The position numbers and the translations under genes are program-made. A stretch of 64,000 nt of DNA from Daucus carota subsp. sativus (taxonomy: Eukaryota; Streptophyta; Magnoliopsida; Apiales; Apiaceae): the NCBI RefSeq assembly GCF_001625215.2, contig NC_030388.2:22122558-22186557 (forward strand). The letters are read 5' to 3'. Shown here one piece after another: positions 10,431 through 40,716 of the stretch (position 1 is its first letter; each line of letters opens with the position of its first letter). A model generated the notes under the pieces. The model was not told the DNA's origin, did no database searches, and was given only the letters and a program-made list of their open reading frames with translations.

Positions 10431-11650
10431 TTCATCTAGCGGAACAGATACTGTAACACATAAATCGAAATCACTCCTCGACACTGCAACACCAACACCA
10501 AATGATCCATAGACTTGGATCGTAGCCTCTGGAAACACTTTAGTGATCACATTACTTAAATTGTCAAACAGCGTATTAAAAGCTTCGCTTTTTTCGGCTG
10601 ATAGCAAAAAAACTTATCGTACTGTTGCCTTAGGTACAGATCAACCGATGCCGATACCAACGGCAGAGGCAGATCCTGATAGGGGTAAGAGGGGTCACCC
10701 CCTTAAATTTTTGTCCTTAGTTTTATTTAATTACATAATGTCGTGCAATGATAAAAAATTACATAATCTGAATATTAAAATTTTATTATCTATTTAATCA
10801 TTTTGATATCCACCATTTTAATCAAGGTAGACATAACTTATTTATGTCGTGCAACGGTAACATAATATGATCATGTAAATTTTTGTTAATGAACATCAAA
10901 TCCAACTTCTTATCATGTATTAAAATATATCATTTAATCAAATATAAAATTTAAATAAATTTCAAATGACATTCAAATTTCGAAAAAAACACGATGTTGC
11001 TCAGATTCTCAGTTATGTGCAATGTTGGGAGGACTCTTGTTTATTTCTCGGAAGAAAAATATAAAGACGTTCTCAATACAAGTGAATGTTCGGTAATTTT
11101 ACTTTAAGTCCAAAATTTTAGCTTGTTAGTTAGAAGTAGTTTTATATTAATATTTAGATGTGTTGCATTCGAAATGAAATTCAAATAAGATTTTTTTATT
11201 TTATATCCAAATATATTATTTAATGAAATTCAGATTTTTCAAATAAAACTCAAATTTCAAATTATAAATTATAGGAACGTTTTTAATATAAGTAAACGTT
11301 CAAAATCATGTAATTTTACTCAAGCTCCGATTCCCGACTTTATCTAAAAGAAACTTATTTGTACCGTTCGCGTAAATTATTAAGACAACTTGTGACTTAT
11401 AAGTCAAAATGTGAAAAGTTGAACTAACTTTGACCTTTCTTTTTTGAAATTTGATTTTACAAAAATGTGGAGGACCACTTTAAAATATAATTTATTGTTA
11501 TTATATTAATATTTTATACGATAAGTTATAAATCTATATAATTCTTAAAGCATGAGTCATTTTTTAAGGCTGCTTTGGTAATTTCACTTTCTCTTGGATC
11601 AACCCATTAAGCTTCGGATCGACCCGGCAGCTTTCTCATTCAACTTAACA
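10430..11650. other. AT-rich intergenic DNA, no gene recognised
   Basis: There is a less AT-rich patch at about 10440-10700 with a short open frame. I see no family resemblance in it. The rest is AT-rich with loosely repeated AATTCAAATTTC phrases. Confidence 0.4.
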
Positions 11651-11884
11651 CTATGAAAGAATATTCCGGGTTTTTATGCGACCCACCCGATTTCCACTGG
11701 GCATGCAGCAAGTTCCTGCCATATCAGGAGCGTGGCATTTATTGTTGTTCCATTGATCAAGCCACTCATTGAGCTTTTTGGATCTCATAGCATCTTCCAA
11801 CCATATGAGAGTTTGAAAAAGGTATTGAATTCGGTTCCTCCAATCATGGCACTCATTACTACGTCTAATTGATTTCAAATTCAA
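11651..11884 (-). CDS. Unrecognised short coding segment, possibly a gene fragment
   Basis: A 77-codon open frame on the minus strand. Its composition (six Trp/Cys-containing blocks, for example WRNRIQYLFQTLIWLEDAM and LDQWNNNKCHAPDMAGTCC) looks more like real protein than the AT-rich frames around it. I do not recognise the family. It has no obvious partner exons. It may be a captured or decayed exon, or chance. Confidence 0.3.
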   Translation of the reverse strand: MNLKSIRRSNECHDWRNRIQYLFQTLIWLEDAMRSKKLNEWLDQWNNNKCHAPDMAGTCCMPSGNRVGRIKTRNILS

Positions 11885-12189
11885 ACATGATAATTAATCA
11901 TAACAAATCCGTGCTTATTTATCTAAATCAATCTCTTCCTCCTCCATTATGCTCTCTCTGCTATTTTTTATTTAAAATTCGAAATTCTTATTATCTACTT
12001 GCATCTATAATCATTTGATCATTTTTTTCTCTCTCGATTTGTAGAGTGTATGGTAGTAACATTTATTTTATATTGCAGTGATAACGGTGGTCGTGTTTTT
12101 TTAGCATGAAGACAAATTCAACGTCGTCAACAGGTTTTGCAATCATTTCGATGATAATGTTGCAGTATCGAAATCCTCGATTATAATCG

Positions 12190-12946
12190 TAAAATTTTGT
12201 TTCTGCAGGTGTGAAAAGAAATGGACGTGGATCGTGGTAAAAGTGTTGAGACAATTTCCAAGAATCAAAAGAAAGCACATGCATCAGGTAATTGATTTCC
12301 GCACTAGAGTAAAGTTTTCATACGCATTCATTTTCAAGATACAGTACTCTTGGTCTTGGTTCCTCAAAAGTCTTGGACGCGATCGTATTGTCGTTAACGT
12401 CTTCATGTAGAATCATTAGTGTGATATACAACAATTTGTAATAAGTTTGTGTCTGTTATTAATTAATAGGTGATCTCATGTGGGGAGCTCATATGATGCA
12501 CCTAATACTGGATTAAGGTAGTTATTGGGTGAAAGTTTGGAAAGTTGGAGAGGCCTTTTTTGAAAGTATACGACCTCCACATATGGGATTGTAGCTTAGC
12601 ATTGGTGTATGTTCTATTTTTTTTGTATTTTTGTTCCAGTTTTTAAGTTTTTTATATTGTATAGATGACATGATATTTTGTAATTAATTTTTTTGACATT
12701 ATTTTTGCATAATTTCCTTTCGTATTGATAGTGATTATGATGCATATATGTCCACTAATGCATTTATTGATCCTTTTTTTATGATTGAGTTTTCTTTGCA
12801 GCTGCTGAAAAGAGATGATTCGTCCAGGCCACTATCGGATGCTCACCGTGTGAAGATTTATATTCACTTTTTCTCAACATCTGATCAAGGCTTTTTGTTT
12901 ACTTCTTATTGCGTGTCATTGTATTTTGACAAGAGACACCGAGAAT
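12190..12946 (+). other. Exon-like segments with splice signals, possible captured gene pieces
   Basis: Two short segments follow acceptor-like tracts: one after TTTCTGCAG near 12210, opening with ATGGACGTGGATCG and ending before a GTAATT donor-like site near 12288; another after TTTCTTTGCAG near 12801, reading LLKRDDSSRPLSDAHRVKIY. I do not recognise either protein. They lie just before the tandem array and Helitron-like complex, where captured exons would be expected, but that is inference. Confidence 0.25.
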
Positions 12947-12964
12947 GAATACGACCCAATTTCC

Positions 12965-14380
12965 GTCCAGATACATGAATCTAGCCTACTATAACTCATA
13001 TGTGTATAAGGAAATGTTGTCAAAATATATTTGATTTTCGATGATTTTGGCATTAATTCTTTTTTGTATAAAATGTAGTGGTTTCCATATTCACTATATT
13101 CAATTTTCAAATCTAGACCTTTTGTTATAATTTCAAATTAATGGAGTACTTTTTCACTTCACAATTTTAGCTCTCGATAAGAAAGTTTTTATATATTAGA
13201 TTTTTAAATATTCGGATACATAGATCTAGACTGTTATAGCTCGCTCATATGCAAATAGGGAAGTCAAACTTTATTTGATTTTCATTGATGTTGACATTAA
13301 TTACTAAAATACCATTTACATTTAATGTTTGTGGTTTCCACGTTCATTATATTTAAATTTTCAAATCAAGACTTTTTGTTATAATTTTAAATTAATAGAG
13401 TTTTTTTTCACTCCATAATTTTAGATCTTGATAAGAAAGTTTTTATATATTTGACCTTTTAAATTTTTGGATATATGAGTCTATCATGGTATAACCCATA
13501 TGTTAATAAGGAAAAATAATCGAATTTTATTTTATTTAACTGATTTTGGCCGTTATTATTACAATCCTTTTTTGTATAATATATATTGGTTTCCATATTC
13601 AATACATTTAATTTTCAAATCAAGACTTTTGATATTTTTATATATTAATTATTATTTTTGAATGTTTTCTGATACATGGATATAGACTGCTATAATTCAT
13701 AGCAAAAAAGGAAACGTAGTCAAACATAATTTGATTTCCACTTTTTTTAGCATTTAATATTACAAAACTTTTTCGTATAATTTGTGCAGTTTTCATATTT
13801 ACTATATTCAATTTTCAGATGGACTTTTTGTTTTAATTTCCGATTAATGGAGTATTTTTTTTCACTTCACAATTTTAACTCTTGATAAAGAAGTTTCTAT
13901 ATATTAGACTTTTAAAATTTTCAGATACATGAATCTAGCCTGCTATAACTTATATGTAAATAAGGAAAAAAAAGTCAAATTTTATTTGATTTTCAATAAT
14001 TTTGGCATTTATTATTACAATCCATTTTTGTATAAAATGTGGTGGTTTACATATACACTATATTTAATTTTCAAATCAAAACTTTTTGTTATAAATTCAA
14101 ATTAATGGAGTCTTTTCTCATTCCATAATTTCAGCTCTTGATATATAAGGAAGTATTCATACACTCGGTTTTACAAATTTTCGATACATGAATCTGGACT
14201 GTAATAGTTTATATGCGAATAGGAAGTCAAACTTCATTTGATTTCCATAGATTTTGACATTTATTACTACAACAATACTTTTTCGTTTAATTTATACAGT
14301 TTTCATGTTCATTACATTCAATTTCCAGATCAAGAATTTTTGTTATAATTTCATTATTAATAGAGCATTTTCTTTTCATA
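12965..14380. repeat. Tandem array of ~230-260 bp units, about six diverged copies
   Basis: The phrase GATACATGAATCT or a variant recurs near 12970, 13215, 13467, 13672, 13924 and 14183. Each copy is followed in order by a CTATAACTCATATG block, TTTGATTTTC, TTTGGCATTTATTATTACAA, TTTTTGTATAA, GGTTTCCATATTCACTATA, TCAATTTTCAAATC and TTTTTGTTATAATTTC. Unit lengths and sequence vary, so it is an old array. It stops against the hairpin at 14381 and the last unit recurs in the duplicate at 25960. Confidence 0.88.
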
Positions 14381-15015
14381 CCTGTGTGTGTAGCACGGGC
14401 CAAAATGCTTAAATAATTTTCATGTGGTAATAAATGAGCATATATTTATTTAAATAAATTAACAATAAAATTTTTTACATGCGGTTTATTATAATTTTTT
14501 GTTATTCTATTCAAGATACGAGGTGTTGCCATTAGGCGACAACGAGAAATTTTAATTATATAGTCATTACTATTTTCATGTCTTTTATAAATATTTTTGA
14601 AAAAAATTTAATTTTTAATTATTTTAACTATACAATTAATGATTTAATAATAGATCCATAAACTTATAAATTTTTATTCCAAACATAAATTATTATTATT
14701 ATATTAAAATTTGGTTATATTAATGATACTAATGAAAAATTTGTTCCGTTATAAAATCGATACAGAATCTATTCCATTATTGATATTTATGACGTATATA
14801 TTCTTATTGTCAATTTCTAATATAGACAATAATTGTAGCATATAATTTTGGTAATGTAACTCAATTATGACTACATATGTATTTCTTTTTTCTTTTTAAA
14901 TCACACATGTATTTCTTTATTGATTATTCCTTCAAGGTTAATTATTTTTTAACATGTTTATCAATTTTTACTAAGGACGGGAGGAAACTCTATCATCAGC
15001 ATATTCACTTTAATT
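14127..15015 (+). repeat. First copy of the duplicated LTR-flanking segment (Helitron-like DNA)
   Basis: This 889-bp stretch is nearly identical to 25960-26848. It holds the last tandem-array unit, the hairpin CCTGTGTGTGTAGCACGGG at 14381-14399 and the start of a Helitron-like repeat unit, including a GCCATTAGGCGAC hairpin near 14530. It ends at the AATGA target site (15016-15020) of the LTR. Confidence 0.9.
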
Positions 15016-15020
15016 AATGA

Positions 15021-17431
15021 TGTTAGGTCCAAAGTATCGTAGAAGGGGGGGTTGAATACGATACTCACTACAATTTAAAATTCTTTCGAATCTTGCGGAT
15101 AAACAAATTGCAGTCCTGTAATGGGTTTCGTGTTCCGGATATTTATTGGGTCGGTTTCTGAGGATATAAAAATATTAAACCAACACACAATATTTTCCAA
15201 GGTATATCTGTATATTGATAAATACCTCGAAGGGTGCTACAAATCCAAACCCGAAGGTTGGCTACAATGGCTACTACTACGTACACTCACAAACCCTAGC
15301 TTCTAAATATATATATATTACAAAACTAAGCTATAGTTTATTTGTGTGTAGTAGTGTGCAAAGGCACAAAGCCATTCCACCATAAAGGTGGTGAAGAGAG
15401 TGTGTATTAATAATGAACACACATCTCAAGTATTTATAGACTTCTCATTAACTAACCCTAGTTAACTTTTGAAGCCAAACTTGCGCCAAACATATATACA
15501 TATATGTTTGTGTAACTTGAAGTTGCGCCAAGTTCATCAGTGGAGTTACTTAGAATAAAATTCTAAGTCATGGAACTTGCGCTTCAAAGGTTGCGCTCCA
15601 GTGGTACCCTTCTACTGATATCTTTCATTTGACTATAGGGTTGACCCGAAGTTGCGCCTCTTTGAACTTGCGCCTTCTTGTATACAAGGGACAGAGTGTA
15701 CTTAGAATATTTCTAAGTACAGGGAACTTGCGCTTTATACAGTGGAGCTCTCCACTGTGTCATGACTTAGAGAAATTCTAAGCAAGGAGGAACTTGCGCC
15801 TCACAGTGTACAAGTACCCCTGTTCTCTCTCATCAACCTTGCGCCAAGGTGAAGAAACACTCCACAGTTATCTCTCCATTGACCTAAACTTGCGCTAGTC
15901 AAAGTCTGCGCCTCCAATGTGCTCCACTGTAGTCATATAGTATATACATGACTTAGACAAATTCACTGGATAGTGAACTTGCGCCACTCAGTGCTCCACT
16001 CTGTATCAGTTATCTCTCCTACGTGCATGGCTTCAGTGTACAACAGTAGCTTAAAGAGATTGAAACCCTAGCTCCATGGACACATGCAAACCCTAGGTTG
16101 CCCTTGACACCTGACATCATCACATGCATGCATAATATATATAATATAATATATTATGTTGTTATTATATTAATAAATAAAAGTATATATATAAATATAT
16201 ACACACATATATATTTTATTTATATGAACATATAATAATATATGTATATATATTTAAATATATTCTCATATATTTAAATATATATAATATATAATTATAT
16301 GTAAATACAAATGTAAATATATATATATAAATATATATAGAGATATATATAGTTATTTATAAATATAAATATAAACATAAATATATATAAAGAAAAGTAT
16401 ATATAAATATATACATATATATAATATTTATATAAACATATAGTAACATATATATACACATATATTTAAATATATTCTCATATATTTAAATATATATAAT
16501 ATACATATAACTATGTGTAAATATAAATATAAATATATATATATATAAAGATATATATAACTCTCTCTAAATATACATATATTTATGCACATAATATAAT
16601 ATATATATACACTTAATTATATAATTGCTTATGTAAAATATAAATACATATACTATATACATATATATTTATTTAAATATACATACATATAAATATACAT
16701 ATACATATGTTTAAAAACATATATACATATATATTATATATATTATATTTAATTAAATATACATATATACATATATATAAATATATTTGTACATATACAA
16801 ATATATAAGTGCACACATATAAAAGATAGGTCACTTCCTGATATGGCTTTCTGTGGAAGCTTGACATATGACATTTGAGCAGTAGACTTGATACAGCTTG
16901 CAGAGGCTAGGCATTTGGCTTGGCTTTGGAACAAATGACTTGTTGTGACTTGATCAATTCTTCGATTGATAAATACTTTGCAAACTCCGTACGTGCTGAC
17001 GCTTAGTGCACTGGTCTGGTTCACAAGCGACTAACACTGAAGTCAAGCATTGTACCGTCTTTGTTAGCAAACATTGATCAGTCGGTTCCGGGTTAGTTAT
17101 GCTTCAGTTTGTTGATTGTAAATAACCAACCAAGATATATAGAAATATCTTGCTTCAGGGGTTGCACTGAAATCTTTCGAGTACTCGGACAACATCTTCA
17201 TTACTTCCACAATCTTGAATACTTCAATCTTTATTCTTCACTGAGGCATGAACATATTAATGAACTTCTTCCAGTGAACTTATTCCTTCAAGACTGTAGA
17301 CAGCTTCTTCAACCTTTGTCTTCGTATCTTCCGATTCCGGTGCAGGCGTAGTGTTATTTACTTGTCTTGTTCTATTGTTGAGTTATCATCCCTATGTAAC
17401 AGATAGGGTTGTCTTTACATTTAGACTTACA
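15021..17431 (-). repeat. Copia (Sirevirus-like) LTR, copy A, 2411 bp
   Basis: On the minus strand the LTR begins TGTAAGTC and ends CCTAACA, the TG...CA termini of LTR elements. AATGA at 15016-15020 abuts its low-coordinate end, and the matching AATGA is found after LTR copy B at 30120-30124. A polypurine tract joins its other side (17432-17445), so in element orientation this is the 3' LTR. The interior has a cluster of TTGCGCC-type motifs (15480-16000) and a TA-rich domain (16130-16800). The short open frames inside it are not genes. Confidence 0.92.
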
Positions 17432-18090
17432 ATCTCCCCCTATTTGTTTGTTAATCATAACAAGCAAATCCTCTGGAGGATAACTCAACTAACACTAGAA
17501 AAAGTAAAATCCTGGACTAGTAAATAATGCTACAAAGTTTCTGGATCATATAATACATTTCCAGATTTCATGAATAGAAACAACAAATGTGCATATCACC
17601 TGTACTTCCTTGGTTCTTGCTTTCCTGCCAGATAATCCTCATAGTCTGTCTTGAAGAGAATTCAAAACATTCCATTATGCAAAGAACAATCAGCAGCTTC
17701 ATTGAATTCTTCAGTGGTAATGAATGAGTTCATGTCTACCACTTACTGAAGAATAAATGTATCACTTTATACATCTCCTCCCGTTACCTTGATCAGGTTC
17801 CCCTCAGTTATACGTAGTTGTCTCCCCTTAGATGAAAGATCAATCCTCCTCCTTAGTTGAAAAAAGAATCTCCCCCTCAGTAGTACACAACTAAAGAGTA
17901 GTTTAATCCCCCTTAGTTGTAGACAGCTAAAGAAAGCTAACTTACTTTTTCTTCCCCCTTTCATAAATTCTCCCCCTAAATATATTCTCCCCCTTAGTTG
18001 TGGAATCCTCCAAGGATATGTGGTATCAAATAGGTCAAGGAACGTGTACAATACTTCCTGTACCAAAAGATAACATCCCCGTAGAGAACT
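17432..18090 (-). other. Multiplied polypurine tracts next to the 3' LTR
   Basis: Read on the minus strand, AGGGGGAGA or close variants recur: at 17432 (adjoining the LTR) and near 17764, 17822, 17870, 17907, 17952, 17968, 17984 and 18075. Repeated polypurine tracts upstream of the 3' LTR are a described hallmark of the Sirevirus group of Ty1/copia elements. The tract adjoining the LTR would prime plus-strand synthesis. Confidence 0.8.
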
Positions 18091-18414
18091 AAACAACGCT
18101 AAAGCTGGGGTCGAAGAAAGAGTTCAGAAGAAGGGTTTACTTTGATTGGGTTGGTCCCTATGCTGAAAGAATAGGTTCCAAACGGAAAAGTAATGAGTGA
18201 AACTGACATACCAGTAACAACATCCACTTTGTCTTTAGGTATAAATTTGGTAATTAGTAGGTGTCTCACTAAAATTTTCTGCAGGTGTATCACTCAACAC
18301 TCAATTTTCTCTCGGTTTTTTGGGTAAGGGTGTCACTCACGAGTTCTGTAAGTGTATCCCACCACACAAATACTGAGCTTCCAAAATGCTGAGTACCTGC
18401 AAGAAAATCACCTT

Positions 18415-19175
18415 AGCCACCCTTAAAGGGGGTCACCGGTGGTGCAATGGGAGTTCGTAATTCCCAGTCCCTGCAGACTCATCAGATAAATCCGAATCAT
18501 GGTCCACAAGTTGCCAACCACTAAGTGGCGTATCCAGTTAAGGATCCAGAGTTGTTTGCTCTGGGAGGTTAGACAAAGGCTTAATTATGGCAAAGGCCTA
18601 AGTCCTCCTCAATGTCCGTGAAGACACTTGATTCAAGAGAATCATCAACCATAGGTTCACACCGTGAAATAGAATGAACTATAGTTGCTTCCGTCAATTC
18701 TTTCAACAACTTGTGAGCTATCAATACCAATTATTATTTTATGTACCTCACAAGTGGTTCACTCTTCTCAATATCCTATGTGTTTGCACTCACTCATGCT
18801 CACATTTTTCTCATTCTGATATCTCACTGGGTCTTTTCAGAATCTCACCAAGTGTTTAACTCTCAGTGTTTGGCTCACAGTGTTTCTCTCAGCACTCAAA
18901 GTATGGTCTTCTGTACCTGCATGAGAAAATCACCATAGCCCCTTCAAGAGAGGTCACTGGCGGTGCAATGGGGTTTCGTAAATCCCCGATCCTCAACTGA
19001 CTCATCAATAAATTGACTCATAGTCATAGAGTTGCCGATCTCCTATAAATAGGAAATCCATTCCGATTGGATCCAGATCTGTTCTTATCTGGGGAGGGAG
19101 ACGAGAATCCTGAAGATTTGGCAATTGAGATCCTCGTTTCCTCCTTACACCTGTAAAGGCATCAACCATCTTATT
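18415..19175. repeat. Internal diverged duplication in the copia interior, ~525 bp offset
   Basis: A block beginning GGTCACCGGTGGTGCAATGG (18430) is repeated beginning GGTCACTGGCGGTGCAATGG (18952). Both continue with TTCGTAA-TCCC, GACTCATCA, AGTTGCC, GGATCCAGA-TTGTT and end near ATCAACCAT. Copies are clearly diverged, so the duplication is old compared with the LTR duplication. Confidence 0.75.
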
Positions 19176-20099
19176 TACCGTAAAATGGTAAATGAAGAAG
19201 TTGCTTCTGGAACAAAACCTTTAACCTTACTGTGCACTCTCTTGTATTGTGTCCATAAGATTTCTGTTTAGGCTCTTCATCAGAGTGATTACTGATGATG
19301 TGCTTGACTCAATACAAGATGCTCTGGCTGACGAGCGAATTTCAATGGACTCATCCTGTTGAGAGAATGATTCCAGAGACTGTTTTATTGCCTTTTCAGC
19401 TCTATATTCTTTTGGGAGAATACAGATGAGCAACAGTTACCTCAAGTTTGAAAACACCTTTTCTTCTTGAGAGGTAGAGCTGTGGGTACACTATATCCCT
19501 CACATCCTTATTTGCTGTAACAAGTACAGTTTCTCCCTCATTGACCTCTAGTCTAATAAGTTCCTTATTACTCCATGGGAAAGTTGGGATGTGTTCTGAA
19601 TTTGGTTTTGTAGTCTGGGATAAAGATTGTTGGTTTTCAACCTTATGACTATCTAGGAAAGCCAAGAGGCTGATAAAGTTCCGAAGAACAGAAAGAGATA
19701 TAAATGCATTTTAGAAAATCTATGATTTTGAATGAAAGCAATTGCATTTAATCTTTTGAGAAAAAAAATGAATCAGTTGTGATTGTAGAAATGATTTGCA
19801 TAAAGAATGACAATCACAACCGATGAAAGAATCTAAGTTTTCCTTTAAAAACTAGTTTGAGTACGAGAGTCTGAATGTATGCATAAAAAAGTTTGAATGA
19901 ACTTGTCTTTGAAAAAGACACAGACTCCTGTTTCTCACTACAATTTAAAAAGGGAACAAGAAAATTTATGCGCTACAGTGTATAAAGCACTCGCCACAAT
20001 AATTAGTGAAAAGGCCTCATACTAGCACATCGTCAAAACAGACGCTGCAAGTGACAAAGATCACCAAGTACACAAATACAAGATAATCAATGCCTCGTC

Positions 20100-21990
20100 C
20101 TATGACGCTACATGTATAGATGTAAAATATTCTAAGAAATATTTATGAAATAGAGTAGTGGATACCAATTGTTGAAATCAATTGATAATAAAATTTTTTT
20201 GAAGAAACTCACCACTCCACAACATAAATATGAGACAGAATAAAGATTATGTTGTCTCCCTTGTACTCAGAATATTAAACACCTAAAATATATTAACACC
20301 AATGGTTTTAAGAGATATGCAACAATATTTTACCAGTGCCGATACATCACAATTAATTCACAAATAAAACATCAATAAAGCATCAAAAATAGATACCAAT
20401 TAAATATTTCAGAAATGAATTAATCATGCTTCTATTATTCTATCAAAGTTAATCATGAAACAAGTGAGAATATAATTGTCATGGATCACAATTTAACTAA
20501 GATAAAATATTAATTACCTACGCAATATCATATAATTATCAGATCAGCATATAACAACAAAAATCATGACAATCATACAAAGATATTCGCAAGCCCGAGG
20601 GAAAGTTGAAGAAAAGTTCACAAGTCCTATACATGTAAGCATTGAGTACAATTAAACTCACACAACTCCTCGCAGAAAGTATTAACAATTAATATTAGTG
20701 ATCTACATATAAGCATGCAAAATATCACTAACACTAAAAGTATCACACCTATATGCAGTTAGACATGAAATAAAATACCAATTAATAAATCATCAAATAT
20801 CTAACACAAATAGCTATGCTTCACATATATACACTAATATAAATGGATTCAGCCTAGAGAGAATCTAAGTAACTCCACAAATACTAGTATATCATGACTA
20901 AATTCTAACTAGATTCTAACCACATACCAATTACTGATACAAGTCACAAGTCTAGAAACAAATAAGTCATGCTTCAGATTTTATACCTATAAAAATGAAT
21001 TGAACCTAGAAAATAATCCTAAGTATGTTCACAAATACAGATATATCACGACCAAATTATGACAAAGTTCTCTACTAGATACCAATTGATAAAGAGGTAT
21101 AGATCAAGAAAAATAACATAATTAAGTCATGCTTCATGTCATCTCTAATCATTTAAATCATGAACAAATAAGTCACTTAATTGTCATGCAACATAATTTA
21201 AATAATTGAAATAACAAACGCTCATGCTAAAACATATAATCACCATCTAAGCATGCAAAGCAATAAACATGGCAATCACATAGAATAGCAAAAAGCACGA
21301 GGTACTGGATTTTAAATAAATTCACAAGTCCTATGTATAGACAATTTAATACTCATGAATTCATTCAAGAAATACGATAGACATGCTCATGAAAGAAGTA
21401 ATACCTTATAGAAAGTATAGTATGTGATCTACTTGCAGTTAAGTAAAGTGATAAGTTGAATACCTCTGAGACTTGACATTTCAGTTGATGTACCTTTCTT
21501 GTACTGATCAAGTCCAGTGGTTGTTGGCATAAGTCTTGACAAGTCTAGAATCTTCCAAAATGCGCATATTCAAAAGATCCTTGATTTCCTTTTATTGTCA
21601 TCATTCTTTAGGCTAACTAGTAGACCATAAAGAATTGCAACTTTCCAACAAACTCATCATATCACTAATCTGCATTCACTTAGCAATTATCTTGCACAAG
21701 TGACATTAGTCCACATATAAAATAATCATGGTATCACAGCACATATAATTATATTTTGTGTGCCTTGTGTCATGAGAGGTAATAATTTGAATGCCAAATA
21801 TGACTCTAGAAAACAAATATTAAAATAATATGCTAGTCAGAAGTCATACCATGTCTGCAACGATCGTTAGGTCTTGGATAGCAACTTCATGAGAGCTGAT
21901 GAAGAAAGAGATATACAAATTCTGTTGGATCTGCAACTGCAAATTCCTTGAAATGTTGTATGAAGCTTTATCCTCTAGCTCACTGTAATA
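20100..21990. other. AT-rich part of the copia interior, no coding sequence recognised
   Basis: No protein family is visible. The phrase ATACCAATT recurs near 20164, 20394, 20778, 20926 and 21081 in one orientation. On the minus strand it reads AATTGGTAT, vaguely like sequence around primer-binding sites, but no full tRNA-complementary site is seen. Confidence 0.4.
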
Positions 21991-22029
21991 TCCCGAACCC
22001 GAGTCTCGTCAATGGTGCTTTAGGTCAAT

Positions 22030-23300
22030 CATGAAGATCGTTGAGTCCCCTAAGATGTAGAGTCCTAAACTTTGAAGATTCTATTTCCATCATCTTCGTA
22101 ACCTTCTCTTTTGAATTAACTCTTAAGCAACCAAATTTGGCTTGTCCCTCGTAACAGAGCCAAAAACATCCAGTTGGAATCTAAATACCCGACAAGTACT
22201 AAGTACTGAATTGTTATTAGGCGAGGTATTAGAATCCGCACAATCTGCTTTCAAACTGATTGAGATCATCTTGTTGTGCAATCACTCAATCTGGATCCAT
22301 TTAAGAGCTTCTGAATCTTCCTCAAGTTTCACTTCAGATTGAAACCCAAAGAAACAACATCCTTTCACAATATCTCTCCTAGTCTTCACTTCACCATTCG
22401 GAACATTTAAGAACTAGAACCCGGGAATGATATTGACTCCAAACCCTTTGTCTAAGCAGATACGTTCTTGATATGTCCTGTTCATCTCCAACGTGGTGTA
22501 GAGTTTGACTAGTGGATCCACCAAATGCTCCCCCTAAGCTGTTGCTGGGATTTCTTTAATAATCCTTATCCTTGCAAAGAGATTCTGCTTGGATCTGAAT
22601 CATTATTAAACTAATACTATCACCTTTAACAGCTTGGAGCAAAGTGTCATTCAATGTCCTGTCCAGACTTACAATCACCTTCTGTTGATTAATCACAATC
22701 ACCCTGTAGATTATAGACTCCATAGAGTAGCCGAGGAAAATGTTCTTTGGGCTTTAGATGCAAGACTTGCAAAGATGCTCACACTAATATTTTGAGATGG
22801 AGCATTTTCCTCCAAACACATACCAAGAGATAGTGTTTGCTTCTGATTGGCTACTGGAAAGAATGGTGTCTTTCTGAATTTATCAATGATCAGGGTTCAT
22901 CTTGATCAACCTTCATTTGTGACATCTTGTTCTTCGAACGCATACGAACAGCACGAAAGAATCTAGAGTAGTCAATGATCATCGCAAAAAGATACATGGC
23001 TTTGTTTGCAGACATGACATTAGCTGATCCGTAGAAATCCATACGTAGCATCTGAAGCGGCTCAGTAATGTTTATCATATCTTTGCTTCTGTGCGATACT
23101 CCTTCGACTTCCCTATTGACATACCTCATAATCTTCATCCATAATGACTTCCAGATGAGGTAGTCCTCTTACCAAATCTCTTCTTACTAATAAAAAGAGT
23201 TCCTTGTTTTGACATACAAGTTTGAGAGCTTCAAGTGCCATAGCTAATACTCATCCGATGAAGCTTCACTATCGAAACAGCTCACTCCATCTTCAGTTGA
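22030..23300 (-). pseudogene. Broken copia pol: gag-pre-integrase, integrase and reverse transcriptase start
   Basis: With stops and frameshifts tolerated, the minus strand shows the copia pol order. WHLKLSNL near 23240 resembles the gag-pre-integrase WHxRLGH motif. RGLPHLEV follows, then SHRSKDMINITEPLQMLRMD and IIDYSRFFRAVRMRSKNK (23100-22920), which match the integrase core L-HMDLFGP and VDDYSRF-W---LRSK. FLGYSMES-YRV near 22720 is the integrase C-terminal part. Near 22290-22080, DLNQFE and VFRFQLDVFGSVTRDKPNLVA match the start of copia reverse transcriptase (EELNQFE, WVFRNKLDE-G-V-RNKARLVA). Several in-frame stops mean it cannot make a working polyprotein. The rest of RT and RNase H is not recognisable. 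Confidence 0.82.
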
Positions 23301-25959
23301 AGTTCCATATTAGCTACGAGCAAAATTCACATCTTTCCTGATTTGAGATAAAGCACTATTCCATGAACTGACATAATGTCCTTTGTCAGAGAACAGTCTG
23401 ATACTCAGAATTTGTGTGCTTTGACTCTTTGCAAGAAAGATATGCTTCCATGATGGCATTCCATAAAACAGGCATGTCCCGTAAGAGAATCTTCGTTGTC
23501 ATCTTCCAAAGATTATTGACGGAACTGCTCACACGATCACATTTGCTAACAGGGTACTTTTGTGAATCATATGATTTCAGCTACTCAGCAAACAGAGTGC
23601 ACCAAAAATCATATGGAATATATGTAACCTACAATCACAAATGGAAAGAGTTCTATGGTCCCCAATCATAACTGGGTCCGGATGGATTAGAGATTTTTCT
23701 TTAACAATGGTAACAACAGAAGCAACCTTAACATGCTCATTCTTATCTAGACATTGCCCTAATGTGATTCTCAAACATGCTTTTCTAAAATCAATGCAAG
23801 TACAAAGACATGCATTCATGACATGAAAATAAGCAGACATGATGTTGAATACACATGGCAAACAATCAAAGATAAGACAATAGCACGAAAGGCAGTTATG
23901 CAATTCAGAAGATTCAATACTCTCTACTTAAACCAATTAACACAAGTGTAACAGGTAGAAAGCAGAATTAAAGATATTTAATAATCCCCTAAAGCATAAT
24001 GATAATAGACAAATTAATAATCACATTATCAATTCATACTAATCCCACTCTATTGTTATATGACATTATACTATCTCTATTACTTAAGTCAGTTTTAGAT
24101 CTAACATGAACTTCTAAAAGTTCTACTGACACAAGGTAGACATTCCATCATAGAACAAACAAATTCCTTAACAAACAATTCAGATAAATAAGCAAATCTA
24201 GTTGTACTAGGAAATCTGAAACTAAGTGTTTTAACAAAGTTATATATGCTAGGATCATAACCCCTAAAATTAAGAGTCGTGTTCCAAAGGAAAGCTTCTA
24301 ATCTTACTATTACAAATAATCAAATCCTAAATATTCATACACATGCTAAGAATCTGCTAAAGACACATGCACAAGATTATCATCAATCCTAGTTACCAGA
24401 ACAATGATCTAGCATACTAGTCCAATCATTATCTATTGTGATGCTATCATGCTTGTGCTTGTGTGTTAAACAATTCTACTCAGAGATTTATAACATGCTT
24501 TGAATATAAAGAAATATGTATTGCATAGATAGAAAGAATTCATACCTGAGATGTGCGAATTGAGTCATCTTCAGAGAATGCTAGGATCGCTAGATAACCA
24601 TAATCATCCTTCTCATCAGCAACTGATCCATCTCACACCTGTCCTAAAATAGCATAAGAACTTCTTGTGATGCTTCTTTCAAAACATCCACTTGAAATTC
24701 AGACAAGCCCTATCATCCTTGTTTGTCGAGGCTTCAATATATATAGCAACCCTTCTTTGCTTAAGATACCAAACAATATTGTGTGTACTGACCAACTCAG
24801 TTTTCAAACAACCTGTCGAACTGAACCCCGAAGAGTCTCCACTTGAAACCAATGGATTCCATCTGAATCTGACATGACTAAACCTCTCAGATAGTGTTAT
24901 GCTAATCCTTGAAGTTATGTCCTCACATTCTTCAAAAGTGTTAACTTTCGTCGACTTGAGCTTCCTCAAATTCAGTAGTTACAAACTCTTTTGTTCAATC
25001 CTAAGGTTCTGACATAAATGCACGAAACTGATTTGGTGCGGTAGTAACTCGATAATTATATCCTTAAACATCCACAGTTCTCTGTCTTTGGTTCAGCTGA
25101 TTCCACATAGATTTAGCATTGGTACAATTCACTGAGTAATTGTATATCCCTGAATCACTGAGTTAGATTTGAAATCCCTTGAAGATTCTCTTGCAAAAAC
25201 TTCTCTTTTCCTACTACTAGTGGTGCCATTCAAAGTTGACATTCCGAGCCCTGGAAAGATGCTTCATTGTAGATGTAGCAAATTCCCATCCTGATCTGGT
25301 GATCTGATAATCAAGTCGGAGTAATTACTCAGATCAAGGCCTGAAGTACCTTCTTCAAAATCCACTTTTAGTAGTACCAAATTAGTCTTCAATAGAATCT
25401 TCTTCGAATCACAATCACCTTTGTCGAACATAGAAAACTGCTTCTAATAATCCTTTGAGAAATCAATTGGATTGGGTCATCAATGTACTTCCATTACCGG
25501 TTCTGAGAATTTGGTATTTGAAAGCCCGGTGTTTGTCTTGTAATCTGTCAGCCTGATCTGTCTCAACTAAATGTCAATCTGATTTGTCTTGGAGTAGAAT
25601 AATTAAAAAAGTTACGGGACACTTGATTATTTAAACTAAGTTTAAATTATAAAGAAAATAAATTTAAAAATAAGTTTTAAAAGATGAAAGAAAATAAAGT
25701 ATAAAATAAACTTAGTTAAATCTATAAAGTAAATTTAATTATATTTAAAAAATAAATTCAAATAAATTCATAATAAACTGAACAAGTTTAGAACAAATTT
25801 ATTTCGAATTCATTTAGTAAATATATTAAAATTTATTAGATAAATTTAATTTTTGAAAATATTCAAGTGTCTCGTCTCCAATTAAATCATAGCTTCCTGA
25901 ACAAACTAAATTGAACCCTTGAACTTGAACTTATATCCATAATCAGTTAAAACCTCTTA

Positions 25960-26853
25960 AATTTCAGCTCTTGATATATAAGGAAGTATTCATACACTCG
26001 GTTTTACAAATTTTCGATACATGAATCTGGACTGTAATAGTTTATATGCGAATAAGAAGTCAAACTTCATTTGATTTCCATAGATTTTGACATTTATTAC
26101 TACAACAATACTTTTTCGTTTAATTTATACAGTTTTCATGTTCATTACATTCAATTTCCAGATCAAGAATTTTTGTTATAATTTCATTATTAATAGAGCA
26201 TTTTCTTTTCATACCTGTGTGTGTAGCACGGGCCAAAATGCTTAAATAATTTTCATGTGGTAATAAATGAGCATATATTTATTTAAATAAATTAACAATA
26301 AAATTTTTTACATGCGGTTTATTATAATTTTTTGTTATTCTATTCAAGATACGAGGTGTTGCCATTAGGCGACAACGAGAAATTTTAATTATATAGTCAT
26401 TACTATTTTCATGTCTTTTATAAATATTTTTGAAAAAAATTTAATTTTTAATTATTTTAACTATACAATTAATGATTTAATAATAGATCCATAAACTTAT
26501 AAATTTTTATTCCAAACATAAATTATTATTATTATATTAAAATTTGGTTATATTAATGATACTAATGAAAAATTTGTTCCGTTATAAAATCGATACAGAA
26601 TCTATTCCATTATTGATATTTATGACGTATATATTCTTATTGTCAATTTCTAATATAGACAATAATTGTAGCATATAATTTTGGTAATGTAACTCAATTA
26701 TGACTACATATGTATTTCTTTTTTCTTTTTAAATCACACATGTATTTCTTTATTGATTATTCCTTCAAGGTTAATTATTTTTTAACATGTTTATCAATTT
26801 TTACTAAGGACGGGAGGAAACTCTATCATCAGCATATTCACTTTAATTAATGA
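25960..26853 (+). repeat. Second copy of the LTR-flanking segment
   Basis: Nearly identical to 14127-15020, including the hairpin (26214-26232) and the AATGA at 26849-26853. The left junction at 25959/25960 joins the copia interior directly to the middle of a tandem-array unit, with no LTR or primer-binding site between them. Confidence 0.92.
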
Positions 26854-28242
26854 TGTTAGGTCCAAAGTATCGTAGAAGGGGGGGTTGAATACGATACTCA
26901 CTACAATTTAAAATTCTTTCGAATCTTGCGGATAAACAAATTGCAGTCCTGTAATGGGTTTCGTGTTCCGGATATTTATTGGGTCGGTTTCTGAGGATAT
27001 AAAAATATTAAACCAACACACAATATTTTCCAAGGTATATCTGTATATTGATAAATACCTCGAAGGGTGCTACAAATCCAAACCCGAAGGTTGGCTACAA
27101 TGGCTACTACTACGTACACTCACAAACCCTAGCTTCTAAATATATATATATTACAAAACTAAGCTATAGTTTATTTGTGTGTAGTAGTGTGCAAAGGCAC
27201 AAAGCCATTCCACCATAAAGGTGGTGAAGAGAGTGTGTATTAATAATGAACACACATCTCAAGTATTTATAGACTTCTCATTAACTAACCCTAGTTAACT
27301 TTTGAAGCCAAACTTGCGCCAAACATATATACATATATGTTTGTGTAATTTGAAGTTGCGCCAAGTTCATCAGTGGAGTTACTTAGAATAAAATTCTAAG
27401 TCATGGAACTTGCGCTTCAAAGGTTGCGCTCCAGTGGTACCCTTCTACTGATATCTTTCATTTGACTATAGGGTTGACCCGAAGTTGCGCCTCTTTGAAC
27501 TTGCGCCTTCTTGTATACAAGGGACAGAGTGTACTTAGAATATTTCTAAGTACAGGGAACTTGCGCTTTATACAGTGGAGCTCTCCACTGTGTCATGACT
27601 TAGAGAAATTCTAAGCAAGGAGGAACTTGCGCCTCACAGTGTACAAGTACCCCTGTTCTCTCTCATCAACCTTGCGCCAAGGTGAAGAAACACTCCACAG
27701 TTATCTCTCCATTGACCTAAACTTGCGCTAGTCAAAGTCTGCGCCTCCAATGTGCTCCACTGTTGTCATATAGTATATACATGACTTAGACAAATTCACT
27801 GGATAGTGAACTTGCGCCACTCAGTGCTCCACTCTGTATCAGTTATCTCTCCTACGTGCATGGCTTCAGTGTACAACAGTAGCTTAAAGAGATTGAAACC
27901 CTAGCTCCATGGACACATGCAAACCCTAGGTTGCCCTTGACACCTGACATCATCACATGCATGCATAATATATATAATATAATATATTATGTTGTTATTA
28001 TATTAATAAATAAAAGTATATATATAAATATATACACACATATATATTTTATTTATATGAACATATAATAATATATGTATATATATTTAAATATATTCTC
28101 ATATATTTAAATATATATAATATATAATTATATGTAAATACAAATGTAAATATATATATAAATATATATAGAGATATATATAGTTATTTATAAATATAAA
28201 TATAAACATAAATATATATAAAGAAAAGTATATATAAATATA

Positions 28243-29091
28243 GGGTCAGGTTCCAGATAGAACCGCTTAAACTTAGAACCATAGAACCATATTAATAGTC
28301 ATTAAATGAAAGTAATTTGAATGTGTGAAATTAAATATATGAATGTGTTTTAATATAGTTAGTATTTAAATATACATGTTCTCAATTAATGCACATTCTT
28401 AATTTATATTTGATCATTTTAATAATAAAAATACATTTAATATTTAATTCATATATCTAAGTAGTGTGATGCAACATAACTCCAAAATACGAAGAGCTAG
28501 AGTGTGCATGTTTTGATATTTTATTATTGTTTACATGTACTGCAACAGAATTTCGTGCTTTGTAATATAATTTGAGCCAGATATGTACTGCATCAGAATC
28601 TCGTGTTATGTAATATTATATGAGCTAGATATGTACTGCATCAGAATCTCGTGTTGTGTGTTGTGTGATATTATATGAGCTAGATATGTACTGCAGCAGA
28701 ATCTCGTGTTTTGCAATATTATTTTAGCTAGATATGTACTGCAACAGAATCTCGTTTTTTGTAATATTACATGTACTGCAGCAGAATATCGTGTTTTGTA
28801 ATATTATATTATTAAAATTGATTGACAATCACATGTTGGTGGTTTGATTTGCATTTATAACAAAATGGATATATATTAACTGATTATCATAATGAGTAGG
28901 TAGTAGTTAATGATTATTATGATTTGTAATAATGGTTTACATATATAAGATAAGGTATCTTAAATAGCATTAAGTTGTAATTTACATTTATATAGCTAGG
29001 CAGATCATGACCATTGAATTCATATTCATCCAATGGATGTGTATGGTCCTAAGTTCTAATTTTAATATTGGTTCTAATTTGAACCTCACCC
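28243..29091. mobile_element. 849-bp inverted-repeat element inserted in LTR copy B, Mutator-like
   Basis: The insertion is exact when compared with LTR copy A. Its ends are GGGTCAGGTTC and GAACCTCACCC, an 11-bp inverted repeat with one mismatch. The flanks TATAAATATA at 28233-28242 and 29092-29101 give a target duplication of up to 10 bp; the TA-rich site blurs the exact length. Long (8-10 bp) duplications suit Mutator-like elements. There is no transposase, so it is non-autonomous. Confidence 0.82.
28500..28810. repeat. Tandem repeat (~55-60 bp unit, about six copies) inside the inserted element
   Basis: The phrase ATGTACTGCANCAGAATCTCG followed by TGTTTTGTAATATTAT recurs about six times, at near-regular spacing. 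The copies are similar enough to be recent, with small length changes (for example a TGTGTTGTGTG expansion near 28655). Confidence 0.85.
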
Positions 29092-30119
29092 TATAAATAT
29101 ATACATATATATAATATTTATATAAACATATAGTAACATATATATACACATATATTTAAATATATTCTCATATATTTAAATATATATAATATACATATAA
29201 CTATGTGTAAATATAAATATAAATATATATATATAAAGATATATATAACTCTCTCTAAATATACATATATTTATGCACATAATATAATATATATATACAC
29301 TTAATTATATAATTGCTTATGTAAAATATAAATACATATACTATATACATATATATTTATTTAAATATACATACATATAAATATACATATACATATGTTT
29401 AAAAACATATATACATATATAATATATATATTATATTTAATTAAATATACATATATACATATATATAAATATATTTGTACATATACAAATATATAAGTGC
29501 ACACATATAAAAGATAGGTCACTTCCTGATATGGCTTTCTGTGGAAGCTTGACATATGACATTTGAGCAGTAGACTTGATACAGCTTGCAGAGGCTAGGC
29601 ATTTGGCTTGGCTTTGGAACAAATGACTTGTTGTGACTTGATCAATTCTTCGATTGATAAATACTTTGCAAACTCCGTACGTGCTGACGCTTAGTGCACT
29701 GGTCTGGTTCACAAGCGACTAACACTGAAGTCAAGCATTGTACCGTCTTTGTTAGCAAACATTGATCAGTCGGTTCCGGGTTAGTTATGCTTCAGTTTGT
29801 TGATTGTAAATAACCAACCAAGATATATAGAAATATCTTGCTTCAGGGGTTGCACTGAAATCTTTCGAGTACTCGGACAACATCTTCATTACTTCCACAA
29901 TCTTGAATACTTCAATCTTTATTCTTCACTGAGGCATGAACATATTAATGAACTTCTTCCAGTGAACTTATTCCTTCAAGACTGTAGACAGCTTCTTCAA
30001 CCTTTGTCTTCGTATCTTCCGATTCCGGTGCAGGCGTAGTGTTATTTACTTGTCTTGTTCTATTGTTGAGTTATCATCCCTATGTAACAGATAGGGTTGT
30101 CTTTACATTTAGACTTACA

Positions 30120-33100
30120 AATGATACTAATGAAAAATCTATTACGTTGTCTTTCATAACTTATATCTCATATCATACTGTTTGTTAATAAAAAAATGTA
30201 TAGCTTAACTGGAAAAAAAAAACAAAAAAATCCTATCTGTGTACGTAGCACGGGCTAAAATGCTATGAGCATTTTTTTATTTGAATTAAAATTTGATAGA
30301 TGAGCATCGTTTTATTCAAATAACTTAACAATAAAATTCAATGCATACAGTTTATTATTATTTTTTACTATCTTATTTAAGGTATGAGGCATCGCCGCTA
30401 GGCGACACCGAGAAACTTTAATTATATAATCATTACTATTTTCATGTTTTCTTATAAATATTTTAGATAAAAATTACTTAATATTTTTTTATTATTTTAA
30501 CTATACAAATAATGATTTAATAATATATCCATAAACTTATAGATTTTTATTCCAAACATGAAATACTATTATTATATCAAATATTTGATTATATTAATGA
30601 AAAATATATCCCGTTATAAATATTTATCAATTTTTATTAAGGACGGGAGGAAACTCTATTAGCAGCATATTCACCATAATTTTATAATTAAGGAATGGAA
30701 GGAAGCTTTATAACTTGCATAACTGGGTTAAGTTTATTGTTATTTATGTTTCAAAATACAAAAATTTATATAGTACGCGTCGTTATAATTTCTGTTGTGT
30801 GACTTTATTTTTTTCATTCGACATTCGTATATATTACCTTTAACATCTACAGCGTATTGATCGCCAATAACATAACTCGGGTATTTTGACTGTTACCTAC
30901 GCTGCCTTTCTGAACTTATATCTCATATCATACCGTTTGTCAATAAAAAAATGTATAGTTTAACTACATAAAAAAATCAAAAAATCATACCCGTGTGCAT
31001 AGCACGGGCCAAAATGCTATGAGCATATTTTTATTGAAATAAAAATTTGATAAAGGAGCATATTTTTATTTAAATAACTTGACAATAAAAAAATTTTACA
31101 TACGGTGTACTATAATTTTTTGTTATTTTATTTAAGATTCGAGGAGTCGCCGTTAGGCGACGTCGAGAAATTTTAATTCTATAGTCGTTATTATTTTGGT
31201 GTCTTTTATAAATATTTTAGAAAATAATACCTGATATTTTTGATTATTTAACAATACAGATAATGATTTGATAATAGATCCATGAAGTTATAAATTTTTA
31301 TTCCAAACATGAAATATTATTATTATATTAAATATTTGATTATATTAATGATACTAATTAAAAATCTATTCCGTTATAAAATCAATACAGAATCTATTCC
31401 ATTATAAATATTTATCACGTATATCTTTTTATTATCAATTTTCGATATAAACAATAATCGTAGCATATAATTGTAGTAATCTAACTGAATGATGACTACA
31501 TATGTATTTCTTTATTGATGTATTACCTTAAAGTTATTTATTTCTTAACCTATTTATCAATTTTTATTAAGGAAGGGAGGAAACTCTATCATTTGCATAT
31601 TCACCTTAATTTTATAATTAAGGTATGGATTGAAGCTTTATGATACGCATAATCAGGTTAAGTTTATAATCATTTATGTTTCTAAACACAAAGATTTATA
31701 TCGTCCGCGTCATTATAATTTTTGTTGCGTGATTTTATTTTTTTTCAATCGACATTCGTATATATTATGCTTAACATCTACAACGCACTGATCGTCAATA
31801 ACATAACTCGAGTATTTTGACTCTTACATATTTTGTCTTTCATAACTTATATCTTATATCATACTGTTTATTAATAAAAATGTATAGTTTAACTAGATTA
31901 AAAAACAAAAAATTATATCCGTGTGCGTAGCACGGGCCAAAATGCTACGAGTATATTTTTATTTAAATAAAAATTTCATAAATGAGCATATTTTCATTTA
32001 AATAACTTCACAATAAAAATTTTACATATAGTTTATTATATTTTTTGTTATTTTATTTAACATTCGAGGCGTCGCCTTTAGACGACGCCAAGAAATTTTA
32101 ATTATACAAACATTACTATTTTCATATCTTTTATAAATATTTTGGAACATATTACCTAATATTTTTGATTATTTAACTATACAAATAATGATTCGATAAT
32201 AGATCCATAAAATTATAAATTTTTATTCCAAACATGAATTATTATTATTATATTAATTATTTATTTATATTAATGACACTAATTAAAAATCTATTCCGGT
32301 ATAAAATCAATACAGAATCTATTCCATTATAGATGTTTATCGCGTATATCTCTTCTTATTATCAATTTTCATTACAGGCAATAATCGTAGCATATAATTT
32401 TAGTAATGTAACTGAATTATGACTACATATGTATTCTTTTATTGATGTATTACCTTAAGGTTAATTATTTCTTAACTTATTTATCAATTTTTATTAAGGA
32501 AGGGAGAATACTCTATTATTTGCATATTCACCTTAATTTTATAATGAAGTATGGATGGAAGAATTATAATACGCATAATCAGGTTAAGTGTTTATAATTA
32601 TTTATGTTCTAAATACAAAGATTTATATAGTCCGCGTCCTCATAATTTCTGTTGCATGAGTTTATTTTTTTTCAATCGATATTTGTATATATTATCTTTA
32701 ACATCTACAACGTACTGATCGTCAATAACATAACTCGAGTATTTTGACTCTTACATATGTTGCCTTTCATAACTTATATCTCATATTATACTGTTTGTTA
32801 ATAAAAAATGTATAGTTCAACTAGATAAAAAAACAAAAAATCATACTCGTGCGCGTAGCAAGGGCCAAAATGCTACGAGTATATTTTTATTTAAATAAAT
32901 TTTTCATAAATGAGCAAATTTTCATTTAAATAACTTAACAATAAAATTTTTACATATAATTTATTATATTTTTTGTTATTTTATTTAAGATTCGAGGCAT
33001 CGCCAAGAAATTTTAATTTTATAGTCATTACTATTTTTATGTCTTTTATAAATATTTTAGAAACAATTACCGAATATTTTTTTATTATTTTAACTATACA

Positions 33101-34840
33101 AATAATGATTTGATCATAGATCCATGAAGATATAAATTTTTATTCCAAACACGAAATATTATTATATTAAATATTTGGTTATATTAATGATACTAATGAA
33201 AAATCTATTCCGTTATAAAATCAATGCAGAATCTATTCCATTGTAGATATTTATGATGTATATCCTTTTATTATCAATTTTCAATAGGCAATAATTATAG
33301 CATATGTATAGTTTTAGTAATGTAACTGAATTATGATTACATATGTATTCCTTTATTGATGTATTACTTTAAGGCTAATTATTTCTCAACATATTCACCT
33401 TAATTCCATAATTAAGGAATGGATGGAAGTTTTATAATACGTATAATCAGGTTAAGTTTATAATTATTTATGTTTCTAAATTAAAAGATTTATATATAGT
33501 CCGTGTCGTCATAATTTCCGTTGTGTGATTTTTTTTTTTTTAATTGACATTCGTATATATTATTTTTAACATTTGCAACGTATTGATCGTCAATAACATA
33601 ACTCGAGTATTTTGAATGTTACATACGTTAGTTTTCATAACTTATATCTCATATCATACTGTTTGTTAATAAAAATTTTATAGTTTAACTAGATAAAAAA
33701 AAATCATACCCGTGTGCATAGCACGGGCGAAAATGCTACATGTATATTTTTATTTAAATAATTTTTTCATAAATGAGAAAATTTTCATTTAAATAACTAA
33801 ACAATAAAATTTTTACATATAGTTTATTATAGTTTTTGTTGTTTTATTTAAGATTCGGCGACGCCGAGAAATTTTAATTATATAGTCATTACTATTTTTT
33901 ATATCTTTTATAAATGTTTTGGAAACAATTATCGAATATTTTTTTATTATTTTAACTATACAAATAATGATTTGATCATAGATTCATGAACATATAAATT
34001 TTTATTCCAAACATAAAATATTATTATTATATTAAATATTTGGTTATTGTGATGATATTAATGAAAAATCTATTCCGTTATAAAATCAATACAGAATCTA
34101 TTCCATTATAGATATTTATCACGTATATTCTCTTCGTATCAATTTTCAATATAGGCAATAATTATAGCATTATATAATTTTAGTAATGTAACTATATTAT
34201 GAATACATATGTATTCCCTAATTGATGTATTACTTTGAGGTTAATTATTTCTTAACATATTTATCAATTTTTATTAAGGACGGGAGGAAACTCTATCATC
34301 AGCATATTCACCTTAATTTTATAATTGAGGAATGGATGGAAGCTCTGTAATCTGCATAATCATGTTAAATTAATAATTATATATATTTCTAAATACAAAG
34401 ATTTATATAGTCCGCGTCGTTATAATTTCTGTTGCGTGATTTTATTTATTCAATCGACATTTGTATATATTATTTTTAACATCTACAACGTACTGTTCGC
34501 TAATAACAAAACTCGAGTATTTTGACTCTTACGTACGTTGCTTTCATAACTTATATCTCATATCATACTGTTTGTTAATAAAAATGTATAGGTTAACTCG
34601 ATAAAAAAAACAAAAAACATACACATGTGCGTAGCACGAGACAAAATGCTAATAAACATTTAAAATTCTATAATTTAAAACTCATAATAAATAATTTGAC
34701 TGCGCTGATTACCCGCCAGATTTGGGGTTAAGCACGACATAAAGTATAGATTAAGTTTTTTTTTAAAGCAAATTATAGATTAAGTCGATAAAAATTAAAG
34801 AATCAATACCCGTGTGCGTAGCACGGGCCAAAAAAGCTAG
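30120..34840 (+). mobile_element. Helitron-like region with tandemly repeated hairpin end units
   Basis: The hairpin CCCGTGTGCGTAGCACGGG or a variant occurs near 30232, 30990, 31919, 32846, 33709, 34623 and 34809. Each is followed by a similar 750-930 bp unit (the last is only ~186 bp). Each unit has a second palindrome near GTCGCC-TTAGGCGAC and a shared AAGGACGGGAGGAAACTCTA phrase. The last hairpin is followed by CCAAAAAAGCTAG and then T, which fits a Helitron 3' end (hairpin, CTRR, inserted before T) at 34840. The 5' TC end was not located; the element may extend left through the LTR insertion to before 13 kb. No Rep/helicase is seen, so it is non-autonomous. Confidence 0.72.
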
Positions 34841-35606: not shown

Positions 35607-37549
35607 ATCCGATCATTTAAGTTTTTTAGAAAAGACAAATGCGAGATTTCTAGCCATTGAAAATATAATTGGGACATATAATTTCTGTTTGTTTTGCAGA
35701 AGTAGGAATTTCTGCTTCAGCTTCTCTCTCACACCCTCTGTTTCTTTTTCAAACACTTTATTAACTTATATATTTTCACTTCTAATCTATTTTTTTATTT
35801 TAAATAAAAAACATTTATTTTAAATTTACCTAGTCGCCCCATAATGAGTACAAATGTTTCTTCTTCGGTCTTTAAATTTTTGTTAGTTTTTTTCATTAGT
35901 GTAATGAGATAACAACGCAGTATACTGTCACCTAATTTGAAGAAATCGCGTCTCACTTTAGCCTGATTGATATTAAAGATATTAAGAACAAATCGTCCAT
36001 TTTGATTTATTTGAGTGAAAGAGTGAGTTGGATGATAGGTTCTATAATAAACTCAAATTGAAAAGTATATACTCTTTTGGGATCTTAAGGAATCATAGGT
36101 TCTAATATGACTACAACATACATGGTTCTCTATGTCTTATGATTCAATAAGTCTTAGTAATTGTACAGGAACTTGATTATTATTTTAAGTAGAAAATCAT
36201 GGTTTTATCTTAATTAGATTTATAACCCGGGCGAGGCACGAGCGTGTTATAAAATCTAATTTGTAAATTTAAAAATTATCATAATATTTTTTAAAAAAAT
36301 ATTCTTTTATTTATTAAAATAATGTGTTAGCCAGTGGTTAAACACAATATTTATCGTTTATATATATAAAGAAACATGTTATAAATATACAAACTCAAAT
36401 ATAATAAGCTAGAATTTCGATATCAAAAATTATTTCACAAAGTCCATGTGATTTTATTTTAAAAAAAAAACTTAAAGAGTACCCAAGCTAGTAGAGCTCT
36501 GCTTAATTGTACATGTCACAGTTCTTTTAATAACGAAGATGTTGTTTCTCTCTACCAGAGTACTTCTCAACTTCCCAGCATCACTTGAAATCATGATAAA
36601 ATATGAAACCTATAATTTTCATAAACCTCTTTTTTAATATTATTTGATTACGTCTTATAGGGATAAGTTTTAGAATAATTATCTTTGTATTACTTTACTT
36701 GTCTACATGTCCCTCACTATCACAAATCTGGGCAATGCAGTGCAAGTGCCAGCTCCGATATGACAACAGAGAAAGAATATAAAATGAATTTTGAAAAATA
36801 GCAAATATTTAAATTCTTGTATCGGTAAAGAGAGATATAATTAGAAATAATATTTGGGAAAAAAGTGCTAATATAATATAATAAATATGGAAAACCCCAT
36901 TACTCTATATTATCATGATAAAAGATCAAATAAGAAGGAAATTATCAAATTATTTACTTTTATTTTTCGAGTTATCAATATATTCCTATTATTTTTAAAT
37001 AAAATTTACCGATCAACATTTGTTTTTTATAAATCAATAAGATAAATATAAAATATTATATTAGTCTATATCTTTTTCTTTCCATCAAAACGAGTCGAGC
37101 CAAACATTTTCGAGCTCAGTCTTTTAAATTAAAAATTCGGATTGATCGAATTTAATTCGTCTAAAATTTTAAGTTCAGAATTTGAATTGATCAAAATTTT
37201 TTGAAGACTCGAATCAACTAAAGTGTAATTTTTCTTTAAGAAAATATGTATCCTAAGTGATTTAAAATGGACCTGTAGGATTATGCAATTCCCTATTTTC
37301 AACCTCTAAAATATTATATTTTAATGATTACTTAAAATATTGAGGATCAAAAAATTATTTTGCTCCAACGGTGTTCCCTATTTGATTCCTTATATTTTAA
37401 ATCTATATATACAACTAAAGGAGACAGAAAGATTGCACTAATAAATAACAGAAAAATAAGAGGAGATATGAGCTGGTGATGACATGGAGCATATAAGGGG
37501 TTGCTTTTTCATCTCTCAAATAAGGGGTTGAACTTTCTCTCATCTAAAA
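35607..37549. other. AT-rich intergenic DNA, no gene recognised
   Basis: There is a possible Helitron-end remnant near 36220-36250 (AACCCGGGCGAGGCACGAGCG), too degraded to call. Otherwise no coding, RNA or intact mobile signal. Confidence 0.45.
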
Positions 37550-40664: not shown

Positions 40665-40716
40665 TTGCAGGTCACATTTAGCCAACGATTATAGCCTAAC
40701 ACCGTTGGAGATGCTC

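Follow-up and report, generated by a model that had tools for sequence, protein, structure and literature searches.

The window analysed here, a stretch of 64,000 bases of the carrot genome (C8:22122558-22186557), contains a Helitron that hosts a copia element of Sirevirus type, to judge from its sequence marks, and the piece of Helitron on the left of the insertion is present twice, each time beside an LTR. The features referred to below are as follows, with copy A denoting 14127-17431 and copy B 25960-30119.

11533..34840, plus strand: Helitron inserted between A and T, with TC...CTAG ends and tandem arrays inside, host of the insertion; borders common to paralogues
14127..15020, plus strand: left flank, source copy, ending in AATGA (15016-15020); contiguous with the left context here and in both paralogues
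15021..17431, minus strand: 3′ LTR, 2,411 bp (element on the minus strand); TG/CA ends, terminal PPT 10 bp away
17432..17994, minus strand: PPT-proximal linker with four AGGGGGAG octamers, by octamer mapping
17432..25964, minus strand: degenerate interior of the element, which stops 461 bp short of the 5′ LTR and lacks the PBS; from relatives and integrase traces
25960..25964, no strand: AATTT microhomology at the new join, common to the uncut interior and the source flank, by sequence comparison
25960..26853, plus strand: 894-bp copy of the left flank, with AATGA (26849-26853) at its end; 1 difference from the source, 3 states in common against both paralogues
26854..30119, minus strand: second LTR, interpreted as the original 5′ LTR of the element, and holding the MITE; from alignment, termini and uncut relatives
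28243..29091, no strand: MITE-like insert, 849 bp, not present in copy A, with imperfect terminal inverted repeats and a 10-bp target duplication (TATAAATATA), by alignment
30120..30124, plus strand: AATGA, right-hand target-site duplication; AATGA is found once in both empty sites

The repeated flank and its host

Helitrons are defined by an A/TC 5′ end, a 3′ hairpin and a CTAG/T 3′ end. Here A/TC lies at 11532/11533 and CTAG/T at 34840/34841, the 3′ hairpin is present, and we base the assignment on the termini together with the borders of two paralogues (98.0-99.2% identical to the window): the one on C6 (36.4 Mb) has both borders in common with the window, and the one on C8 (18.29 Mb), which is 5′-truncated, has the 3′ border.

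Aligned end to end, copies A and B differ by 4 substitutions in 3,301 aligned bases, by two 2-bp AT indels and by an 859-bp gap, which corresponds to the 849-bp MITE plus its 10-bp target duplication. In self-BLAST, 14127-16411 matches 25960-28242 at 99.8% and 16402-17432 matches 29092-30120 at 99.7%. The repeat is composed of 894 bp of flank (AATGA included) and an LTR of 2,411 bp with TG...CA ends (15021-17431 in copy A, 26854-30119 in copy B). The substitutions lie at 14222, 15516, 15931 and 16734 in copy A coordinates; those at 14222 and 15931 are changes on the copy B side, and those at 15516 and 16734 cannot be assigned to either side. Between the LTRs alone there are 3 substitutions and the two AT indels in 2,411 bp; the right 625 bp of LTR B are identical to LTR A and 2 differences fall in the left part, too few for a gradient. 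At a substitution rate of 1.3e-8, 4 changes in 3,301 bases would date the split of the copies to ~47 kyr ago (13-119).

AATGA is found at 15016-15020, 26849-26853 and 30120-30124, and the LTR of copy A is followed by ATCTC. A sequence-only reading of this DNA had thus correctly described the near-identity of the two stretches, its continuation for ~890 bp beyond the LTR, the Helitron-like character of the flank, a MITE in copy B alone, and AATGA on both sides of copy B as against the outer side only of copy A. The MITE-like insert holds an internal array of ~48-bp units (28535-28773), and the LTR contains eight copies of CTTGCGC (15480-15978, 45-96 bp apart).

In both paralogous empty sites (2/2) AATGA occurs once and the left flank meets the right flank directly. 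Because it is single there, AATGA is, by this comparison, a true target duplication. These sites also settled a doubt about the left AATGA, raised by an array unit at 32523 that has AATGA 4 bp further on. Copy A and both paralogues have the left flank joined without interruption to its left neighbour; in copy B, similarity to the arrays starts at 25960, barring weak matches (five short ones to the left, 13 bp across; E of at least 0.016). Everything to the right of the copy B LTR is original flank, with the AATGA that is single in both empty sites. A 24-nt stretch at the right flank, considered as local filler, is present in 3/3 Helitron copies, both paralogues included, and is thus ancestral. 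Over 894 aligned positions the two flanks have three states in common against both paralogues and one difference, which changed in B. The common states show that the copy B flank had its source at this locus.

Elsewhere in the window, 48995-53258 holds two dirigent-protein genes in tandem whose DNA is 89% identical, and several blocks alike at 83-97% make up another stretch of local duplication at 37546-44368. Proteins of the window are close to those of carrot-family relatives, the dirigent protein being 94% identical in Heracleum and 85% in Apium.

Marks of the element and its interior

Sireviruses are marked by a PPT octamer 10 bp upstream of the 3′ LTR followed by AT/TG, by about four such octamers in the linker, by CA/ATTGG-TATCAGAGC at the junction of 5′ LTR and PBS, and by a C-rich integrase signal near the 3′ end of the LTR (PMC2829016). 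The element in the window has AGGGGGAG at exactly 10 bp before the 3′ LTR, with AT/TG next, and four such octamers at 10, 446, 546 and 563 bp from that LTR; the whole window holds 6 against 0.42 expected, the other two being at 22528 and, in a GA-rich repeat, at 3817. CA/ATTGG-TATCAGAGC is missing from the window and is exact in 3/3 relatives inspected (L010-L012). By eye, seven C lie within ~25 bp of the 3′ end of the LTR, a match by position and C-richness only. With as many as 2 mismatches allowed, the PBS 12-mer gave 4 matches against 3.26 expected. An inverted repeat with its left arm next to the PPT was found in all but three of the Sireviruses covered in PMC2829016, and is hence not universal; in the window it is not where that paper puts it, the best arm pair (14/15) being 58-44 bp before the LTR. 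Taken together, the marks indicate a Sirevirus-type copia element. At 9888-10219, three fragments are 78-83% similar to the PPT-proximal linker at 17991-18265, as remains of an older related element.

We scanned 53 stop-to-stop pieces of the interior with Pfam (51/51 minus-strand pieces of at least 30 aa in 19700-25959, and 2 nearer the LTR). The two copia-type integrase traces found stay under the Pfam cut-off (SH3_retrovirus, E=2.5e-5; rve, E=0.004), and chance-like matches also reach E=0.004; reverse transcriptase was not found in these pieces. Gag-like residues seen by eye near 25.1 kb had no Pfam match and are not claimed. Rfam at gathering cut-offs gave 0 matches.

Uncut relatives and the origin of the arrangement

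We searched the carrot genome itself (441,086,747 bases in 11 contigs) with the segment around the join, 25860-26060. Among 40 places scored of 593 candidates, all 39 outside the window match up to 25964 and none beyond, and the window itself is the one place that reads across the join; a further match, of 44 bases and in reverse orientation, lies next to one of the 39. The segment 24356-25964 is continuous with relatives at ~96%. In the relatives L010-L012 (3/3 inspected) the interior runs to 25964, AATTT included; another 461 bp, which contain the PBS, separate this point from the LTR. The sequence-only reading was thus right that the interior is truncated, the 461 bp with the PBS being absent. 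It had also held that a normal LTR pair was excluded by the common flank, and this is probably wrong: given the uncut interior of the three relatives, the locus appears to be a complete element in which the last 461 interior bases were replaced by an 894-bp copy of the left flank.

The distance between the LTRs agrees with this replacement, the observed offset of 11,833 being equal to that predicted from the uncut distance of 11,405 plus (894 - 461 - 5). At least 15 LTR pairs 11,235-11,531 apart are found in the carrot genome among the matches listed; in one case, C1 at 42.2 Mb, the spacing was measured between the aligned ends, since one match is shorter. In three relatives (L003-L008) the LTR pairs are 99.96-100% identical over 2.3 kb, which marks the family as young, or recently active, though the interior in the window looks degenerate. 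The divergence between LTRs A and B is within the range that the pair of a young element may show, yet above that of the three relatives inspected.

The sequence at the join is CTTAAATTTATATT in the uncut interior, CATAATTTCAGC in the source flank and CTTAAATTTCAGC in the product, with AATTT in all three. When these two regions were joined at random 200,000 times, a fraction of 0.0155 (1.55%) had at least 5 shared bases, so the 5-bp microhomology (P = 0.0155) is moderate support in AT-rich DNA for a join closed in this way. The longest reading frame across the join has 31 residues. Exact searches of viral contigs with the join and with an LTR 30-mer gave 0 matches each and are uninformative.

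We consider it probable (roughly 65%) that one break was repaired by LTR-primed copying into the flank and closed by microhomology. The element would have inserted once at AATGA in the Helitron, to which the empty sites and the target duplication attest, and a later DNA break would have fallen within the 461 bp between the interior and the 5′ LTR. The 5′ LTR end may then have paired with the other LTR of the element, on the same molecule, a sister or a homologue, and been extended across the edge of that LTR and 894 bp into the left flank, after which the new end would have been joined to the broken interior at AATTT. This would give the order that is seen: interior, copied flank, 5′ LTR, AATGA and right flank. 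Alternatively, copying may have set out from AATTT on the interior side and finished when the new strand annealed to the 5′ LTR; the product would be identical, and the direction of copying cannot be told from it. A single repair event predicts copied flank directly against an LTR with AATGA, microhomology at the far join and otherwise a normal element. Since copy A keeps a single target, the MITE would have entered the copy B LTR as a separate event.

The most likely reading of the copy B LTR is thus that it is the original 5′ LTR of the element, still in position, and so a false solo LTR. A solo LTR has no interior at its locus; here the interior and the other LTR of the same insertion lie directly upstream of copy B. 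Calling copy B a solo LTR, as had been done from the sequence, fits the local structure but probably not the history, because uncut relatives show the 5′ LTR in place. A true solo LTR could have arisen if the ~11.8 kb from 14127 to 25959 had been duplicated in tandem at AATTT and LTR-LTR recombination had then taken place in the second unit. Product and microhomology would be the same as after one repair event, solo LTRs are described as common in plants (PMC7251063), and the window has other tandem duplications, such as 48995-50575 / 51662-53258. This history nevertheless takes two events where one is enough, and the position of the junction relative to the relatives requires no second unit; we regard it as unlikely, and only parsimony separates it from the single repair. 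The earlier proposal of unequal crossing-over or template switching pointed the right way in its second clause, while its tandem duplication of ~11.8 kb is possible but costs the additional event. Much less probable still is an illegitimate exchange in which one chromosome carried the complete element and the other a true solo LTR; this might give the product in a single step but requires a prior solo-LTR allele.

The other earlier proposal, that the assembly joined two alleles, or in a wider form two haplotypes or two loci end to end, seems to us similarly improbable. The carrot DH1 v.3 assembly (440.7 Mb, nine chromosomes; PacBio, Nanopore and Hi-C) was made with guided assembly and gap filling, a point in favour of such a join, and comes from a doubled haploid (PMC10581907). 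The locus is known from one assembly. If this assembly is DH1 v.3, the MITE and SNP differences cannot be alleles, because heterozygosity is not expected in a doubled haploid; such a source leaves two alleles little room. In addition, there is no N at the join or anywhere in the 64,000 bases, and the 5-bp microhomology lies at the join. It is the uncut relatives, the empty sites and the probable doubled-haploid identity of the genome that led to the revised interpretation.

Relation to known systems

The locus offers a clean footprint of what was probably one repair event, all parents of which can be read in uncut relatives, in the source flank and in two empty sites, and suggests that a complete element can pose as a truncated element plus a solo LTR. 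Counts of solo LTRs are a measure of LTR-LTR recombination, and can be off through such false solo LTRs. It is conceivable, though we think it doubtful, that a break next to one LTR is often mended by copying out of the other LTR and on into the flank of that LTR. If so, further LTRs should carry a piece of flank along with both target duplications, some of the solo LTRs with target duplications in plant surveys would be false, and elements would gain host flank between interior and LTR.

The repair mechanism proposed belongs to a known class. Repair-mediated duplications with hallmarks of synthesis-dependent strand annealing are described in human, with intra-chromosomal cases of up to 619 bp (PMC2671141). 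The carrot locus resembles them in having a closely linked direct copy, one new join and apparent break repair by copying, and differs in that 894 bp of flank lie beyond 2.4 kb of LTR homology and that closure is by microhomology. As in the filler DNA of maize, nearby DNA was apparently copied into a break of a plant genome, but the maize fillers in PMC2686159 are 1-131 bp long, compared with 894 bp here. The solo LTR Diguus, a product of intra-element recombination described in the same paper (PMC2686159), likewise has identical target duplications on both sides, whereas in the window the remainder of the element lies upstream and a duplicate of the flank adjoins the LTR on the left. The element itself is like Sireviruses (PMC2829016) in the PPT octamer and its spacing, AT/TG, the several octamers and, in relatives, the PBS junction; unlike six tabulated there, with LTRs of 1.16-1.56 kb, it has an LTR of 2.4 kb, and its interior is degenerate.
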